Assembly (NCBI RefSeq): GCF_002846495.1
Contig: NZ_PJNE01000001.1
Span: 1,364,001 to 1,428,000 of the forward strand
DNA length: 64,000 bases
From: Phycicoccus duodecadis
Lineage (GTDB): Bacteria > Actinomycetota > Actinomycetes > Actinomycetales > Dermatophilaceae
Direction: 5' to 3'
The position numbers and the translations under genes are program-made. Below are positions 4,047 through 41,809 of this stretch, piece after piece. How positions within the stretch are numbered: the first letter of the stretch is position 1; each line of letters begins with the position of its first letter. Under the pieces are notes generated by a model that worked only from the letters and a program-made list of their open reading frames with translations, did no database searches and had not been told where the DNA came from.

Positions 4047-4997
4047 TCAGCCCCGCGAGGTGAGCGAGCGCAGGAAGAACCGGACGTTGGCCGGGCGCTC
4101 GGCCAGGCGGCGCACCAGGTAGCCGTACCAGTCACGCCCGAACGGCACGTACACGCGCATCTGGTGGCCGCGGTCGGCGATGCGCTTCTGCTCGAGGTCG
4201 CGGATGCCGAGCAGCATCTGCAGCTCGTAGCTGTCGGGGCGCCGGTCGTGGTGGCCGGCCAGGGCCTGGGCGATCTCGACCAGGCGCGGGTCGTGGGTGG
4301 CCACCATGGGGTAGCCGTCGCCGGCCATCAGGACCTTCAGGCAGCGCACGTACGACAGGTCGACGTCGGCGCCGTCCTGGAAGGCGACCGACTCGGGCTC
4401 CTTGTAGGCGCCCTTGCACAGGCGTACCCGGCTGCCCTCGCCCGCCAGGTCGCGGCAGTCGGCCTCGGTGCGGTGCAGGTAGGCCTGCAGCACGGCCCCG
4501 ACCCAGGGGAAGTCGGCCCGCAGCGCGCGGACGGTCTCGAGGGTGCGGTCGGTGGTGGTGTGGTCCTCCATGTCGAGGGTGACCGTGGTGCCGGCCTTCT
4601 CGGCGGCCTCGCACACGGCCCGGGCGTTGTCGAGGGCGATGGCGTCGCCGTCGCGCGGGATGGACTGGCCGACGGCGCTGAGCTTGACGCTGACCTCGGT
4701 GGCGCCGTAGCGGGCGAGGTCGGCCTCGGTGAGGGCCTCGAGCAGGGCGATGTAGGTGTCGCGGGTACGGGCCGCCTGCTCGCGGTCGGTGACGTCCTCG
4801 CCGAGGTGGTCGATGGTGGCGAGCCGGTTGGTGGCGCGCAGGTCGGCGGTGGTCGAGACGGCGTCCTCGACGGCCTCGCCCGCGACGTAGCGGTCGACGA
4901 CCGCCCGGCTGACGGGGGCGGCGACCACCGCCCGGCGGACGGTGTCGGACTCGGAGAGCTGCAGCAGTGCTCCGCGGAGCAGGTCGGAGGCGTCCAC
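4047..4997 (-). CDS. Proline dehydrogenase (monofunctional)
   Basis: 316 residues, the size of monofunctional bacterial ProDH rather than bifunctional PutA. Motifs of the FAD-binding TIM barrel are clear: VSVKLSAVGQ, LDMEDHTTTD, the VRLCKGAYKE strand, ATHDPRL and ELQMLLGIR. The enzyme oxidises proline to pyrroline-5-carboxylate and passes electrons to the quinone pool. A P5C dehydrogenase is not adjacent. GTG start at 4997. Directly upstream of proC in the same orientation. Confidence 0.92.
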   Translation of the reverse strand: MDASDLLRGALLQLSESDTVRRAVVAAPVSRAVVDRYVAGEAVEDAVSTTADLRATNRLATIDHLGEDVTDREQAARTRDTYIALLEALTEADLARYGATEVSVKLSAVGQSIPRDGDAIALDNARAVCEAAEKAGTTVTLDMEDHTTTDRTLETVRALRADFPWVGAVLQAYLHRTEADCRDLAGEGSRVRLCKGAYKEPESVAFQDGADVDLSYVRCLKVLMAGDGYPMVATHDPRLVEIAQALAGHHDRRPDSYELQMLLGIRDLEQKRIADRGHQMRVYVPFGRDWYGYLVRRLAERPANVRFFLRSLTSRG

Positions 4998-31558: not shown

Positions 31559-32467
31559 TCACGGGTTGCAGGCCGGACAGTCACCAGGGCCGGCGGTGGC
31601 CGGTGCCGCCGCGTCGAGCACCTCGTGGGAACAGTGCGGGCAGCGCCGGACGACGTGGGTCGGCCGGGCGGTGGGGGTACCGCAGCCGGAGCACGGCGCG
31701 TGGCCGGTGTGCTCGTCGGGGCCGAACCCGAGGCGCCCGCAGGCCGGGCACGGGGTGTGCAGCCGGTGGATGAGGTCGACGGCGGCACGCCGGATGACGG
31801 GATGCCGCTCCGGGGCCCGGTCGGCGCGCAGGTCGGTCTCGACGACGACCCGGGACGACCACCGAGCGGCGTGCCGGACGGCGTCACGGAGCGACTCCGG
31901 GGAGCCGAGGCCCTTTGTGATGCCGGCACCCCCGGCCGCGTCCGGGGCGGTCGCGGCGGCCGGGTCCGGGCGGGCGACGAGGCGGGTGCGCGTGAGGTCC
32001 ACCTGCGCCAGGACGCGGTCGAGCGCGGCGGTGGCGTCGGGGTCCACGGTCCAGGACCGCGCCCACGGGGCGTGGCCGGTGGCGCGTCCCGTGAGGGTCA
32101 GGCCCGACTCGGTGTCGAGGAACGCCAGCAGCTCGTGCTGGACGACGAGGCCGGTGTCGGGGTCAGGGGTGAAGCTCCCCTCCGAGGCGAGGGCCAGGGG
32201 CAGGCCGCCCGCTGCCGCACCGGCGCGGGCCTTGGCCTCGGCGGCGGCCTGCGCGCCGGCCGGTCGGGGGACCTCGGGCGTGAACGTGCCGAACCGGTCG
32301 GTGTCGACGGCGACGGGGATGACGTGCAGCCCCACGGCCGCGAACAGGTCCCTGACGACCTCGGCCTTCCCGTGCTGCGTGGCCATCACCACCGGACGGC
32401 CGACGTAGGGGCGCGGGCGGCCGGGGGCGCGAGGCTCGGGACGGGAGGTGGTGTCGATGCTGGTCAT
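31559..32467 (-). CDS. Zinc-ribbon protein coupled to dabBA, N-terminus resembling ITPase/Ham1 enzymes
   Basis: 302 residues from the ATG at 32467, overlapping the dabBA stop by 4 bp (ATGA). I think it belongs to a DUF family seen beside dabA genes (perhaps DUF6671), but cannot confirm. Residues 25-36 read PVVMATQHGKAE and 88-98 GLPLALASEGS; this spacing recalls the AT-x-x-x-GK and acidic loop of ITPase/Ham1 pyrophosphatases. A VVVETDLRADRAPERH block (207-222) looks functionally constrained. The C-terminus carries four CxxC pairs (Cys240/243, 259/262, 276/279, 297/300), probably two zinc ribbons. A role with the carbon transporter is inferred from coupling. Confidence 0.7.
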   Translation of the reverse strand: MTSIDTTSRPEPRAPGRPRPYVGRPVVMATQHGKAEVVRDLFAAVGLHVIPVAVDTDRFGTFTPEVPRPAGAQAAAEAKARAGAAAGGLPLALASEGSFTPDPDTGLVVQHELLAFLDTESGLTLTGRATGHAPWARSWTVDPDATAALDRVLAQVDLTRTRLVARPDPAAATAPDAAGGAGITKGLGSPESLRDAVRHAARWSSRVVVETDLRADRAPERHPVIRRAAVDLIHRLHTPCPACGRLGFGPDEHTGHAPCSGCGTPTARPTHVVRRCPHCSHEVLDAAAPATAGPGDCPACNP

Positions 32468-35400
32468 GGCTGCTCCTGCGGGACGGGGGCGGGCTCGTGC
32501 TCGGGCCGGACGCTCCGGGTCGCGGTGCTGACCCGGGCGGATGCGGAGGTGGGGTCGTCGGCATCCCCCGTGGTCCAGGGCGCCCAGGTGAGGTCCGGGC
32601 GCAGGACGCTGACGGTGTCGTCGTCGACGGCCATGACCGTGACCCATCGGTTGACCACGAGGTGGCGCAGGACCTCGTGCCGGTCGACGACCGCGCGGAT
32701 GGCCTCGGGGTCCGCGGCGACGAGGGCGCTCAGCCGGAGCGGCTCGTGCACGAGACCGTCGAGGCCCGCGGCGCCCGGGTCCTCGGTGAACAGGGCCTGC
32801 CAGGGCAGGCCGACCCGCAGGTCGCCGCGGGCGCCGGTGACGACGCCGACGTCGCCGACGACGTTGTGCGTGGTCTTGTCGCCCGCGCCGAGCGTCGAGG
32901 GGGCCAGGGCCGAGAAGTTGTACTGCGCGTTGATCCACTGGGCGACGACGAGGGGCGCGGTGAGCAGCTGCTCGAGGATCTCCCCGCGCGGGTCGAGGCC
33001 GGCGTCGTAGGAGTGGAGGAAGACCCGGCCCTGCAGATCCGTGCCGCGGGTGAGCGACCGGGGCCCGATGACGATCGCCGCGTTGCCGGCCAGGCCCCAC
33101 TCCGGGGTCGGCTCGGACCAGTCCGCGGCCCGGTCGCCCAGCCCGGCGACGGTGTCGGACCGGCCACGGGGCGGTAGCGCCTGGAGCCGCTGGGCGGCGG
33201 CGCGACGGCCGGCGGTGCGTAGGTCGCGCTCGAGGGCGGGGTCGTCCCACGGGTCGAGCAGCTCGACCCGGTCGGTGGTGGTGTCGTGCAGGGCGGCCAG
33301 GGCCCGCGTGTCGTCGGGGATGCGGATCCCCCTCCCCGCCAGGCGGCCCCGCACCTCCGGGTCGTTGATCAGGTGCGCCAGGGCGGCCGCGTTGACCGGC
33401 CCGGGATGTCCGCCGCAGGCCCCGCAGTCGTAGGCCGTGGCGAAGGCGTTGTTCTCCAGGGTCGCGCCGTGGCCGCAGACGAGCACGACCGGGGCGAAGC
33501 CGTCGACGAGTCCGATCGCGCGCAGTGACGACTCGACCACGTCGGTCTTCTCGTCGACGCTCCAGGGGACGACGAGGGAGCCGGTGTCCGCGGGGCGGAC
33601 ACCGCGCGCCGTCGCGGACCGGACCATCCGGCGGACGCGACCCGGCACGACCGTCGTGGCGACCGCGGTCGTCGCCGACAGCACGCCTCCTCCCTCGGCG
33701 ACGGCCAGCGCGGCCACTGGATGCCGGGAGACGGCCGTCGCGGTGCGGTGCACGGCCTCCCGGAAGCGGAGCGGCCGCGCTCGCTCGGTGACCGTGTGCC
33801 GAGGCCGGACGAGCGCGGGGCAGAGGTCGTGGGCATGACCCTCGACGTCGACGAACCGGACGGCCGCGCCGAAGAAGCCGGCGAAGCCGTAGGTCTCGTG
33901 GTTCCCGACCTGCTCCAGGTGGCGCCGGACCCGCTCCGAGCGCACGTCGATGCACCAGAGCGACTGGGTGGCCGGCCGCCCACCCGTGGCTCCCGCTGCG
34001 GCACGGGCGCGGGAGCTCCCCAGCGAGGCGACGAGCCGGCGCTGGGGGCCGACCTCCAGGGCGTCCTGCCAGATCGCCCGGAGCTCGGCCTCCCCGCTTG
34101 CGGCAGCACCGAGGTGACGGTTGCGGTGTCGGTCGACCGCGGGGGGCACGGGAATGGGCCCGGAAGCGACCGCCGCCGCGGCGCTGCTCGCGCAGAGCCC
34201 GACGAGGACGTCGTGCGCCAGCCGCACGGCCACGAGCTCGAGGAGCGGGCCGGGGCCTCCCTGCTCGCGGGCCCGCCAGGCCGCGTGCGCGCTCCAGCCG
34301 GGCGCGGCGGCCAACGTGCTCGTGATCAGGGAGCGCATGTCCGACGTGCTCGTCCCCGCCCGGCGCACGAGCAGCAGGATCGCGGCGACGGGGTCCGCGG
34401 GCAGCGTCCGCGCCCACGCGGCGGCACCGGCGATCCCGATGACCCCGTCGTACGAGCGATGCTGCGCCGCGCGACGCCACAGGTGGTACGGCCCCTCGGG
34501 CTCGGCCTGGGTCGCGGCAGCGCGGTGGTCCGGGCGGGGGGACACCGTCGACCAGGCGAGCTGGGTCCACGCGTTCTCGTGCTCGGCCACGGCGTCCGCG
34601 TGGGGCACCGCGTGCTGCTGCACGAGGCGGCCGCCCGAGGCGCTGACGGGATGGCGCGCGGCCTCGGCGAGGAGCCGGGTCCCGGCGACGACCTCGGGGG
34701 CCGGCCGTGGGGCCGCATCGCGGGGGCGCTGGGCGGCGGCGAGGTCGGCGTCGGTGATCCGCCCGGTCTCGTGGCCGTGCAGGTAGAAGGACAGCCCCGG
34801 CTGCAGGTCATGGCCGTGGAACGCCTCGGCCGCGGCGATGGCGTCGAGGTACGGCAGGTGTTCCAGGCCCGCCAGGGGGTTCGCGGCCACCATGGCGCGC
34901 AGGGGCCACGCCGGGCCGCCGGCCCGCGCCACGTCCTCGACCGTGGCGACCAGGGTGGCGCGCTCCTCGGCGGACGGCTCGCGGGTGGCGTCGGCGGCGC
35001 AGGCCGCCACGACGGACGCGGGGACGGCGCCGCGGGCCCGCGACCCCGGCGTCAGGGTCAGCGGGAACAGGCGGAGGGCCAGGGCTCCGGCCGGGTCGCT
35101 GACGACCCTCCGGCTGCCGGCGACGAGGGCGACGCCGGCCAGGGCCGCCACCGCGAGCAGCGGCGCCGCGGCCCAGCCCTCCCACACCGGGGCCGGAGGC
35201 AGGACCGGGCTCAGGAAGCCCTCCCAGCGCGCCATCGCCCACACGTAGGTCGTCCCGCCGGCACCGGCGAGCAGGACCACCCCGAGGACCGTGCGGGTCC
35301 GGATGCGGGCGAGGGAGGCCGCGTTCCATCCGCCCAGCGCGACGGCGGCCGCCGCCACGGCGAGCGGAAGCAGCGCCACCGGCCCCTGTGTCTCGAGGAG

Positions 35401-36474
35401 CGCGCGGGCGGCCGGCCACGCCAGCAGGACGACGACCAGCAGGGCCGCCCCGGCGGCCGCGAGCTGAGCGCGGGGGCGGCGCACGGTGGCCCAGCGATGG
35501 CCGTGCCGGTCGACCGCGCCCCCGGCCCGCAGGAACAGCCACGACTTGTAGCAGCCGTGGGCCACCAGGTGCATCAGGGCCATGGCCGGCAGGCCGAGGC
35601 CGACCTGGATCGTCATGTACGCCATCTGGGTCGTGGTCGACGAGGCGAGCCGGCCCTTGACGTCACGACGCGCCGCGCCCGACCAGCCGCCGAGGAGCAG
35701 GGTCAGGACGCCCACCCCGAAGAGCCCGGCCAGCACGACGGGCGCGGCGGCGAAGACCGGCCACGCCACGACCGCCAGCACGCCGGCGCCGTTGACGATG
35801 CCCGCGTGCAGGAGCGCCGAGATCGGGGAGGGCGCCTCGGCGGTCTCCGGGAGCCACCGGTGCGCGGGGAACAGCCCGCTGCGCGCCACGCACGCGAGGG
35901 CGAGCAGGGCCGCCACCACCACCACCCGCCCGTCGCTCGCGCCCGTGACGGCCGCGGCCCGGTCGGTCGACGGCAGCCAGGCCACCCAGGCGGCGACGGC
36001 CAGCCAGAGGGCCAGGTCACCCGCGAGGAGCGTGCGCCGCATCCTGCGAGCCGCGGCACCGGCGTGCTGGGTGCCGGTGCGGGCGATGAGGGCGGTCATC
36101 AGCAGGCCGCTCGCGGTCCAGCCCAGCGCGAACGTCACGATGCTGCTGCTCACGGCCAGCAGGGTCAGGGCGAGCAGCAGGCCGGTGAGCAGGGCCCCGA
36201 CGCGGCCGGCCCGGCGCCGACCCCGCAGGTTGGCGGCGCAGAACCGTGCGACGACCCAGCCCAGGACCCCGAAGAAGACGAGCAGGACGCAGGCGGCGAC
36301 GTCCAGCCGCCAGCGCCACGAGAGCCCCGGCGCGAGCGGCAACGCCCCCTGCAGGGGGTCGCCCACGGCCTCCGGGACCAGACCCGAGAGGCCCACCAGC
36401 AGGACCGACAGCGAGAGGGTGCGAACGCCGAGGAGAGGAATCACACGCAGAAGAATGCATGCATTTTGCTTCAT
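32464..36474 (-). CDS. dabB-dabA: DabB-DabA fusion: DAC-type inorganic carbon (CO2/bicarbonate) uptake protein
   Basis: 1336 residues. Residues 1-460 are a DabB/NuoL-like proton-channel domain with about a dozen hydrophobic segments and the hallmark HRWLPETAEAPSPISALLHA (205-224) and HLVAHGCYKSWLF (302-314). From about 505 onward the chain is DabA (DUF2309): WPLRAMVAANPLAGL (523-537). The beta-carbonic-anhydrase-like zinc ligands are all present: Cys841 and Asp843 in WCIDVRSE, His1002 in CGHG, Cys1017 in DCGACGG. DabA and DabB are normally separate genes; here they are one chain without a break. The complex traps CO2 as bicarbonate using the proton gradient. The ATG at 36474 lies in promoter-like sequence, so GTG 36444 may be the true start. 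Confidence 0.9.
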   Translation of the reverse strand: MKQNACILLRVIPLLGVRTLSLSVLLVGLSGLVPEAVGDPLQGALPLAPGLSWRWRLDVAACVLLVFFGVLGWVVARFCAANLRGRRRAGRVGALLTGLLLALTLLAVSSSIVTFALGWTASGLLMTALIARTGTQHAGAAARRMRRTLLAGDLALWLAVAAWVAWLPSTDRAAAVTGASDGRVVVVAALLALACVARSGLFPAHRWLPETAEAPSPISALLHAGIVNGAGVLAVVAWPVFAAAPVVLAGLFGVGVLTLLLGGWSGAARRDVKGRLASSTTTQMAYMTIQVGLGLPAMALMHLVAHGCYKSWLFLRAGGAVDRHGHRWATVRRPRAQLAAAGAALLVVVLLAWPAARALLETQGPVALLPLAVAAAAVALGGWNAASLARIRTRTVLGVVLLAGAGGTTYVWAMARWEGFLSPVLPPAPVWEGWAAAPLLAVAALAGVALVAGSRRVVSDPAGALALRLFPLTLTPGSRARGAVPASVVAACAADATREPSAEERATLVATVEDVARAGGPAWPLRAMVAANPLAGLEHLPYLDAIAAAEAFHGHDLQPGLSFYLHGHETGRITDADLAAAQRPRDAAPRPAPEVVAGTRLLAEAARHPVSASGGRLVQQHAVPHADAVAEHENAWTQLAWSTVSPRPDHRAAATQAEPEGPYHLWRRAAQHRSYDGVIGIAGAAAWARTLPADPVAAILLLVRRAGTSTSDMRSLITSTLAAAPGWSAHAAWRAREQGGPGPLLELVAVRLAHDVLVGLCASSAAAAVASGPIPVPPAVDRHRNRHLGAAASGEAELRAIWQDALEVGPQRRLVASLGSSRARAAAGATGGRPATQSLWCIDVRSERVRRHLEQVGNHETYGFAGFFGAAVRFVDVEGHAHDLCPALVRPRHTVTERARPLRFREAVHRTATAVSRHPVAALAVAEGGGVLSATTAVATTVVPGRVRRMVRSATARGVRPADTGSLVVPWSVDEKTDVVESSLRAIGLVDGFAPVVLVCGHGATLENNAFATAYDCGACGGHPGPVNAAALAHLINDPEVRGRLAGRGIRIPDDTRALAALHDTTTDRVELLDPWDDPALERDLRTAGRRAAAQRLQALPPRGRSDTVAGLGDRAADWSEPTPEWGLAGNAAIVIGPRSLTRGTDLQGRVFLHSYDAGLDPRGEILEQLLTAPLVVAQWINAQYNFSALAPSTLGAGDKTTHNVVGDVGVVTGARGDLRVGLPWQALFTEDPGAAGLDGLVHEPLRLSALVAADPEAIRAVVDRHEVLRHLVVNRWVTVMAVDDDTVSVLRPDLTWAPWTTGDADDPTSASARVSTATRSVRPEHEPAPVPQEQP
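36454..36465. promoter_or_regulatory. Palindrome in the dabBA/regulator control region (candidate operator)
   Basis: AATGCATGCATT is a perfect 12-bp palindrome, markedly AT-rich for this genome. On the minus strand a consensus -35 TTGACA (36476-36481) lies 10 bp upstream of it, so the palindrome covers the -10/spacer region of a dabBA promoter whose transcript would start close to GTG 36444. The gene of a winged-helix regulator begins 58 bp away, divergently. Confidence 0.5.
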
Positions 36475-36522
36475 CTGTCAAGTGCCGGGCCTGGCCTGTC
36501 GAAGCCTCGGTAGGCTCTCCGG

Positions 36523-36837
36523 ATGAGCGATGCGCCGACGCGGCCGTGGACCTTCCTGTCCAACCACGGTCACGTCCTGGTCGCCATCAGCCGCTCCCCC
36601 CACGCCAAGGTCCGCGAGCTGGCCGCGTCGGTCGGGATCAGCGAGCGCGCGGCTCTGTCGATCGTCGGTGACCTGGAGAGTGCCGGGTACATCACCAAGC
36701 ACCGCGTCGGTCGGCGCAACACCTACCGGCTCGACCCCCACCGCCACCTCCGCCACCCGGCCGAGTCCTCGACCCGCGTGGCAGCACTCCTGGCCATCTT
36801 CGAGGTCGACGGGGACGACGGGGACGACGCGAGCTGA
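36523..36837 (+). CDS. Small winged-helix (MarR/ArsR-like) transcriptional regulator
   Basis: 104 residues, almost entirely one winged helix-turn-helix: SNHGHVLVAISRSPHAKVRE, ASVGISERAALSIVGDLES (recognition helix) and GYITKHRVGRRNTYRLD (wing), then an acidic tail. Divergent from dabBA with 48 bp between the ORFs, so it most likely controls the carbon-uptake locus and perhaps itself. A TAGGCT -10-like hexamer at 36511-36516 places the transcript start at the ATG, suggesting a leaderless mRNA. No metal or ligand site is evident. Confidence 0.8.
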   Translation: MSDAPTRPWTFLSNHGHVLVAISRSPHAKVRELAASVGISERAALSIVGDLESAGYITKHRVGRRNTYRLDPHRHLRHPAESSTRVAALLAIFEVDGDDGDDAS

Positions 36838-36928: not shown

Positions 36929-37005
36929 TGGAGCCGCCTATCGGAATCGAACCGATGACCTATTCATTACGAGTGAATCGCTCTGGCCGACTGAGCTAAG
37001 GCGGC
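36929..37005 (-). tRNA. tRNA-Thr (anticodon CGU)
   Basis: The minus strand folds into a standard cloverleaf: acceptor GCCGCCT/AGGCGGC, D arm GCTC/GAGC, anticodon stem ATTCA/TGAAT with loop CTCGTAA (anticodon CGT, codon ACG), T arm ATCGG-TTCGATT-CCGAT. The discriminator is T and CCA appears to be encoded (36931-36929). Confidence 0.95.
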
Positions 37006-40636: not shown

Positions 40637-41809
40637 GTGACATTGAAGTTGGCTCGTCGGTTTGAGGACGCGTTCTGGCGTGAGTACCGGCTCGATGGTG
40701 ACGTGCTGCGGTCCGCGGCTGTGGCTGGGGTCGGATCGAGCATCGCGGGGCGGTGGGTCCGCGAGTCTGGTGGCGTGATCAGGATGCGGGTTGCGGACTC
40801 TGGCCACCGGCTCAGCTTCGAGGAGCGTGAGGCGATCGAGGAGATGCTCGCCCGGGGCCATACCCAGGCGGAGATCGCGCGCGAGATCGGGCGGGCGCGG
40901 TCGACGATCAGTCGGGAGATCGCGCGCAACCTTCGCCCCAAGGGCCGCACCAGCGCCGGGACGGTGCGGATGCGGCCGTACTCGGCGCGGATCGCGCAGC
41001 TGAAGGCTGAGCAGCGGGCCCGCCGGCCCAAACCGACCAAGCTGTCCGGGCACCGGGTGCTCGCGGCGACGGTGCAGGCGTGGATCGGCGGGACCGAGCG
41101 GATGAGCCCTCAGCAGGTCAGCAACCGGCTCAAGGTGCTCTTCCCCGATGATGAGTCGATGCGGGTCTCCCACGAGACGCTCTACCAGGAGCTGTACGTC
41201 CAAGGCCGTGGCCACCTGCGCGCTGACCTGCACCACGCGCTTCGCACCGGTCGGGCCCGTCGGGCCCCGCGCAAGGCCGCCAAACGGCCCCGGGTGCCCG
41301 GGGAGCTGCTGATCGCGAATCGACCCAAGGACGTCGACGCCCGCACCGTGCCCGGGCACTGGGAAGGTGACCTGATCATCGGCAAGAACAGCGCCTCGGC
41401 GATCGGGACCCTGGTCGAGCGCACCACCCGGTTCGTGATCCTGCTTCACCTACCAGGGCGGCACGACGCCGAATCCGTCGCCGACGCCATCGCGCAACAG
41501 ATCACCGCCCTACCCGAGCACCTGGCCCGCTCCCTGACCTGGGACCAAGGCGTCGAGCTGGTCGGCTCCCACCAACGAGTCCGTGCCGAGACCGGGCTGA
41601 GCGTGTGGTTCTGCGACCCCGCCTCGCCCTGGCAACGCGGCAGCAACGAGAACACCAACGGGCTCCTTCGCCAGTACTTCCCCAAGGGCACCGACCTGTC
41701 CGTGTACACCCAAGAAGACCTCGAGACCGTCGCAGACGGACTCAACGCCCGACCCCGCATGACCCTGGGATGGCGTACCCCAGCCGAAGCCCTCGCCGAA
41801 GTAGCCTGA
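40637..41809 (+). CDS. IS30-family transposase
   Basis: 390 residues, intact. N-terminal helix-turn-helix HRLSFEEREAIEEMLARGH then AEIAREIGRARSTISREIAR, typical of IS30. The DDE catalytic core is complete: Asp in GHWEGDLIIGK, Asp in LTWDQGVEL and Glu in NENTNGLLRQYFPKGTDLS. GTG start at 40637. No frameshift or stop, so the element may be active. Confidence 0.95.
   Translation: MTLKLARRFEDAFWREYRLDGDVLRSAAVAGVGSSIAGRWVRESGGVIRMRVADSGHRLSFEEREAIEEMLARGHTQAEIAREIGRARSTISREIARNLRPKGRTSAGTVRMRPYSARIAQLKAEQRARRPKPTKLSGHRVLAATVQAWIGGTERMSPQQVSNRLKVLFPDDESMRVSHETLYQELYVQGRGHLRADLHHALRTGRARRAPRKAAKRPRVPGELLIANRPKDVDARTVPGHWEGDLIIGKNSASAIGTLVERTTRFVILLHLPGRHDAESVADAIAQQITALPEHLARSLTWDQGVELVGSHQRVRAETGLSVWFCDPASPWQRGSNENTNGLLRQYFPKGTDLSVYTQEDLETVADGLNARPRMTLGWRTPAEALAEVA

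Follow-up and report, generated by a model that had tools for sequence, protein, structure and literature searches.

The window, a 64,000-nucleotide stretch of the Phycicoccus duodecadis genome, holds a gene in which the two parts of a DAC inorganic-carbon transporter, DabB and DabA, are joined. Judged from its sequence, the encoded protein is a well-supported member of the known DAC kind and belongs to a fused lineage apart from the published one, and it very probably acts as a single-chain DAC in which proton conduction would drive the one-way hydration of CO2 to bicarbonate. Meanwhile, the two genes linked to it, one regulator-like and one encoding a DUF6671 protein, are a more interesting lead than the DAC itself.

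The fused gene and its match to DAB2

The sequence-only reading had placed DabB and DabA in one 1336-residue open reading frame, and this is borne out. The minus strand at 32464-36474 is a single open frame of 1336 codons with zero internal stops, in the order DabB then DabA, and Pfam finds both domains, PF00361 (Proton_antipo_M, NuoL/Mrp type; residues 109-325, E 2.3e-27, 96.4 bits against a cut-off of 21.5) and PF10070 (DabA; residues 512-1278, profile positions 1-747 of 747, E 2.3e-193, 645.1 bits against a cut-off of 25). The gene and its parts are as follows.

32464..36474, minus strand: fused DabB-DabA gene, from the open reading frame and Pfam; likely real start a GTG at 36444
35125..36474, minus strand: DabB-like proton-channel part, residues 1-450, with PF00361 at 109-325
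34942..35124, minus strand: inter-part linker, about residues 451-511; 54 residues between the profile edges (450 to 504)
32641..34941, minus strand: DabA part, PF10070, residues 512-1278; match to 9rd0_A, E 1.7e-89
33946..33954, minus strand: Cys841 (zinc ligand) and Asp843 (Asp-Arg dyad), identical in every tabulated row, fused or split
33694..33696, minus strand: Glu927, counterpart of the DabA2 finger Glu444 by alignment to 9rd0
33469..33471, minus strand: His1002, zinc ligand by alignment to 9rd0
33424..33426, minus strand: Cys1017, zinc ligand by alignment to 9rd0

A frame error, or two genes taken for one, is ruled out by the stop-free frame, by a Nostocoides sp. Soil756 protein with 78% identity across the whole length of the window protein and by fused frames at many loci. 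Both Pfam domains lie in one protein, by manual count, in 116 of the 120 homologues listed, the window's own copy included, these being the best 120 of 711 and a fused query favouring fused proteins. The database copy of the window protein has 1326 aa and begins at codon 11; since it starts there, and since the ATG at 36474 sits inside the upstream palindrome described below, the true start is probably the GTG at 36444, 10 codons downstream of that ATG. Relatives already bear the names DabA or MpsB in the database.

The DabA part matches chain A of PDB 9rd0, the DAB2 structure of Halothiobacillus neapolitanus, over residues 503-1290, and the DabB part matches 9rd0_B over 43-392 (E 4.2e-21), several NuoL-type chains slightly outscoring 9rd0_B with this single sequence as query. 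Cys841, Asp843, His1002 and Cys1017, put forward earlier as being in register with a complete DabA, align, by manual count, with C351, D353, H524 and C539 of DabA2 in chain A, the roles of which are taken from the available text of PMC13144422. The Cys2His ligands (C841, H1002, C1017) and the Asp-Arg dyad (D843, R845) are all present, and the seven DabB2 proton-path residues S256, H260, K310, S316, H339, H343 and K347 are all kept, as S219, H223, K273, S279, H302, H306 and K310.

Residues were tabulated over 22 fused loci, 110 DabA and 111 DabB parts of database proteins, and the loci L048, L054 and L100, the last taken as Acidimicrobium ferrooxidans. C841, D843, R845, H1002, C1017, S219, H223, K273, H302, H306 and K310 are identical in every tabulated fused row, and S279 is kept in all except one. 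Ser846 (DabA2 Ser356) is invariant across the 22 fused loci and 110 fused database proteins, and the Glu927 place holds Glu in 20 of these loci and 108 of these proteins, with Asp in the remainder. The claim of an intact zinc site therefore stands, no loss of ligands being seen among the fused rows tabulated.

The ion-pair places of DabB2 are less well kept: D185 is retained as D153, K235 is replaced by Arg198 and R182 by Leu150, leaving one pair as Arg-Asp and the other lost entirely, whereas in DabB2 just the Glu is missing among the NuoL ion-pair residues (PMC13144422, in the text available). At the place of that residue, NuoL Glu144, the window has Thr120 and DabB2 has Ile151, the place having been located from the adjacent Trp column and the DabB2 residue taken from the same source. 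R182 and K235 do not define the DAC family, because only 26 of 70 split dabB-dabA rows have Arg at the first place and only 27 have Lys at the second. Coupling in the window protein may differ from that of DAB2 given Leu150 and Arg198, since the R182A and K235A changes in DabB2 are described as keeping complementation while lowering DAB2 growth yield (PMC13144422). The tunnel residue R653 of DabA2 is replaced by Thr1123, at a place that is variable within the fused clade.

An AlphaFold2 model of residues 58-1257 has a mean pLDDT of 88.0 and a pTM of 0.90. In a fold search with a slice of the DAC, 9rd0 was not among the fold-search rows, which mainly probe the NuoL-like part. NuoM/NuoN-type rows reach model residues 882-885, as known from range ends alone, which hints that the DabA finger may complete the antiporter fold. 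What can be read directly from the gene is the joining of both parts in a single frame, the presence of the catalytic residues and of the seven proton-path residues, kinship with DAB2 and the lack of the NuoL Glu144.

Distribution and descent of the fusion

DabA was found in 8 of 149 genomes of the family sample, all 8 of them fused, and in 31 of 394 genomes of the class sample, comprising 12 fused (the window's included), 8 split in the order dabB-dabA, 9 split in the opposite order, 1 whose fetched DNA shows no DabB and 1 fragment. The phylum sample gave DabA in 20 of 296 genomes; two were already in the set, and 15 of the 18 others were taken in, 3 fragmentary ones being left out. These 15 newly fetched loci consist of 1 fused, 5 split dabB-dabA, 8 split in the opposite order and 1 without DabB. 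Among the best 80 named-organism loci of 575 confirmed, 13 are fused and all 13 belong to Actinomycetota. Fusion was never called from the open-frame length of the genome search; the 'AB' order is doubtful for L143 and L165, whose DabA open frames run through dabB, and the name of L123, a MAG titled Bifidobacterium breve, is likewise doubtful. The fusion is thus common in parts of the Actinobacteria without being the most frequent form of DAC in the samples, a possibility that had been named as one that would refute the sequence-only reading.

Several other arrangements were seen in passing. At L125, L128, L129, L133, L138 and L185, by title five Chloroflexota and one gammaproteobacterial MAG, the DabA frame follows the DabB stop directly and in phase, a single stop codon short of a fusion. 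In L101-L105, L107 and L111-L113 of the phylum sample, DabA spans 1236-1279 residues against 791 in the window, a large insertion. The finger-Glu place in 19 rows of DabA-first order is occupied by A in 8, Q in 6, E in 2, H in 2 and D in 1.

A distinct actinobacterial DAC lineage had been suggested, and the trees agree with this. With support of 100, the FastTree tree contains an actinobacterial lineage of 24 rows, 23 of them fused and the other lacking DabB in the DNA retrieved, while the fused rows of the window's clade group together in the DabA tree (17 rows, support 99) and in the DabB tree (18 rows, support 99); the trees were made by quick or FastTree methods, with 54 rows chosen from 122. 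L100 and L048 fall outside this clade. On these trees, nature appears to have made the DabB-DabA joint two or more times, with the parts in the same order, and the window fusion most likely arose in the Actinobacteria separately from that of A. ferrooxidans. Separate fusions are favoured because the junctions differ, the DabB C-terminal tail of L100 resembling that of non-actinobacterial split DabB.

The contrary history, in which the fused gene was one ancient invention that was later split in many lineages, is unlikely. It could draw on the 54-row DabA tree, where two fused/split changes are needed and may be read as one fused ancestor followed by two splits, and on the unstable placement of L054, which lies among split rows in one analysis (81), weakly with the fused clade in the DabA tree (71) and inside it in the DabB tree (99). 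However, a single clade of all 20 fused rows is rejected for DabA (AU test, p 0.00016) and for DabB (p 0.00042), and the DabB tree needs three changes, with the actinobacterial fused rows grouping with 3 actinobacterial split rows (93) and A. ferrooxidans with non-actinobacterial split rows. The differing junctions weigh on the same side, that of several fusions.

Linked genes and genomic site

The fused gene is flanked by the following features.

31562..32467, minus strand: DUF6671 protein of 302 aa, whose ATG start shares bases with the stop codon of the DAC (ATGA)
36442..36477, no strand: imperfect 36-bp palindrome, candidate operator, 13/18 pairs, with a perfect core AATGCATGCATT at 36454-36465
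36523..36837, plus strand: divergent winged-helix (HTH_24) gene, candidate regulator
36929..37005, minus strand: tRNA-Thr(CGT), bordering the three genes; order kept in relatives without the three genes

Homologues of the winged-helix protein (threshold E 1e-10) occur in 8/8 DAC-positive and 14/141 DAC-negative genomes of the family (p 6e-8, overstated by relatedness among the genomes), and by coordinates the homologue adjoins the DAC in all 8 DAC-positive genomes. With 36 short-context loci and 10 identical rows left out of the neighbour counts for this gene and DUF6671, a winged-helix gene lies near 14 of 20 fused DACs and 29 of 33 split dabB-dabA actinobacterial loci, and near 0/19 split loci of other phyla and 0/13 loci in the opposite order. 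A DAC-specific family holds just in part, given the homologues in DAC-negative genomes. These homologues (L195-L208) come from 14 family genomes without DabA, and G016 has a second copy; the alignment of the family consists of 22 listed homologues and the window. The gene is a concrete candidate regulator of actinobacterial DACs.

As an operator, the palindrome taken by itself is weak in the window, where 30 of 63,964 positions score as high, the site itself counted, and it is the copy in Soil756 that gives it interest: a perfect 36-bp palindrome at the matching place (L039, about 4430-4500), with the winged-helix gene on one side and the fused DAC on the other. A perfect 12-bp palindrome is missing there in most other relatives, and a sigma-70 scan found no promoter.

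The DUF6671 protein is predicted to adopt an ITPase-like fold, similar to the ITPase/HAM1-Maf fold, and its C-terminus carries 8 Cys in pairs, a pattern from which we infer a zinc ribbon. The alignment covers 25 of 28 distinct loci and the window, and no paper using the term DUF6671 was found in the literature searched. In the Actinomycetes, 7 of 8 DUF6671-bearing genomes also have DabA, the exception being G224. The gene lies near 5/20 fused DACs, 16/33 split dabB-dabA actinobacterial loci, 4/19 split dabB-dabA loci of other phyla and 0/13 loci in the opposite order. A constant DAC partner is rejected by the count near fused DACs and by the 24 of 31 DabA-positive class genomes without a DUF6671 match. 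It is a concrete candidate for an accessory factor of actinobacterial DACs.

Four genomes of the same genus that lack the DAC have a pyrophosphatase gene, DUF427, tRNA-Thr and the next gene in the same order, DUF427 and the tRNA being about 0.2 to 2.0 kb apart there and 5.5 kb apart in the window. These are the informative DAC-less ones of six stretches compared, as those of G128 (no DAC) and G106 (DAC elsewhere) include neither tRNA-Thr nor the next gene. In Soil756 the three genes lie at the same place. This points to the DAC genes having been gained beside the tRNA, or lost repeatedly. Elsewhere in the window, a transposase-like ORF lies at 40637-41809 on the plus strand; it carries HTH_38 together with an rve integrase core, and we take it to be IS30-like.

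A broader reading, tentative and probably not correct as a whole, is that the fused DAC, as a single-chain PMF-driven CO2 hydrase, could be the pump of a patchily inherited actinobacterial inorganic-carbon cassette, in which the winged-helix regulator would act through the shared-promoter palindrome in response to CO2 or bicarbonate shortage and, in some loci, a translationally coupled DUF6671 protein would serve the DAC by zinc delivery, assembly or nucleotide-gated control. If this were true, DUF6671 would be an accessory component, so far without a name, in a subset of DACs, alphaproteobacterial split ones included.

Proposed function and comparison with known systems

The most likely role of the window protein is that of a proton-driven vectorial carbonic anhydrase, the scheme being the model given for DAB2 in the available text of PMC13144422. 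The N-terminal NuoL-like part would conduct protons down the membrane gradient, the hydrophobic helical finger of the C-terminal part, bearing Glu927, would complete the outer half-channel, and proton passage would activate the buried Cys2His zinc site, which has kinship with the beta-carbonic anhydrases. This site would then hydrate CO2 unidirectionally to bicarbonate, feeding the carboxylases of a heterotroph. It is from sequence that we infer the activity, coupling ion, direction and bicarbonate use of the window DAC.

A sodium-coupled bicarbonate importer, rather than a proton-driven CO2 hydrase, is argued for in the MpsAB papers as sodium-bicarbonate cotransport (PMC6689103; reported in PMC13144422, both in the text available), and the first ion pair in the window is Arg/Asp, not Lys/Asp. 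This is a decidedly unlikely account of the window protein, in which the zinc ligands and the Asp-Arg dyad are retained, and DAB2 is described as fully active without sodium (PMC13144422). Less probable still is a DAC that has decayed or been put to another use and has ceased to transport inorganic carbon: the gene is patchy within the family, a carbonic anhydrase is also present in the genome and the R182, K235 and R653 places are altered, but zinc and core proton-path residues are retained across the tabulated fused rows.

For the proton-driven hydrase, supply of bicarbonate to carboxylases in a heterotroph would be the likeliest use; the anaplerotic role suggested in the sequence-only reading is a conjecture. 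The presumption of heterotrophy is consistent with the genome, where no RuBisCO match was present, RuBisCO being the one carbon-fixation route searched. The genome's single weak Pro_CA match is a small Rv1284/3las-like beta-carbonic anhydrase (L228, 1393-1899, plus strand), and no alpha-carbonic anhydrase match was found there; since this small enzyme is retained, the DAC would not be the sole bicarbonate source. Some Pro_CA match is present in 147 of 149 family genomes, so the need for a DAC is not obvious. If a best E under 1e-20 is taken as strong (a limit of our own, applied by eye), 59 of the 149 genomes have a strong match, namely 1/8 DAC-positive and 58/141 DAC-negative genomes (Fisher p 0.15, related genomes not being independent). 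On these Pro_CA and alpha-type searches, the DAC as a substitute for a lost carbonic anhydrase is unsupported.

The sequence-only reading had taken DACs to be built from two separate proteins. This is wrong: a fused mpsA-mpsB gene of A. ferrooxidans had been published by 2019 (PMC6689103), and the available text of PMC13144422 refers to it as a natural single-subunit DAC; in that work DabB2 and DabA2 were also fused by hand, in the same order, for cryo-EM because the complex fell apart. That engineered fusion worked, bringing stability with growth yield not significantly affected (PMC13144422). The proposal that fusion enforces 1:1 stoichiometry is weak, as DabA2-DabB2 is already described as a heterodimer (PMC13144422). 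A literature search, with many journals outside its coverage, did not find a fused DAC in Actinobacteria other than A. ferrooxidans. Natural fused proteins may offer naturally stable DACs for structural work and for engineering carbon supply.

Like the window gene, the A. ferrooxidans DAC (L100) has DabB then DabA in one frame with zinc ligands intact. It differs in its separate place in the DabA and DabB trees, a single clade for all the fused rows being rejected, in having Lys at the K235 place and Arg at the R182 place where the window has Arg198 and Leu150, and in a longer DabB tail and a linker of 68 residues against 54. The H. neapolitanus DAB2 shares both part families, the zinc ligands, the finger Glu and the seven proton-path residues, while its R182, K235 and R653 are substituted in the window protein, and it is naturally two genes, fused just in the cryo-EM construct (PMC13144422). 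MpsAB of Staphylococcus aureus is a two-part homologue that supports growth of a heterotroph in air and complements an E. coli carbonic anhydrase mutant; it is encoded by two genes, with sodium coupling argued (PMC6689103), in contrast to the one gene here, and the available text of PMC8567241 gives the species no carbonic anhydrase, whereas the genome of the window has a small one. Split actinobacterial DACs, for example in Microbacterium, Cryobacterium, Mycolicibacterium and Nocardia, share the winged-helix neighbour (29/33) and, in about half of the loci, DUF6671 (16/33), but their DabB and DabA are separate genes, often with overlapping frames.
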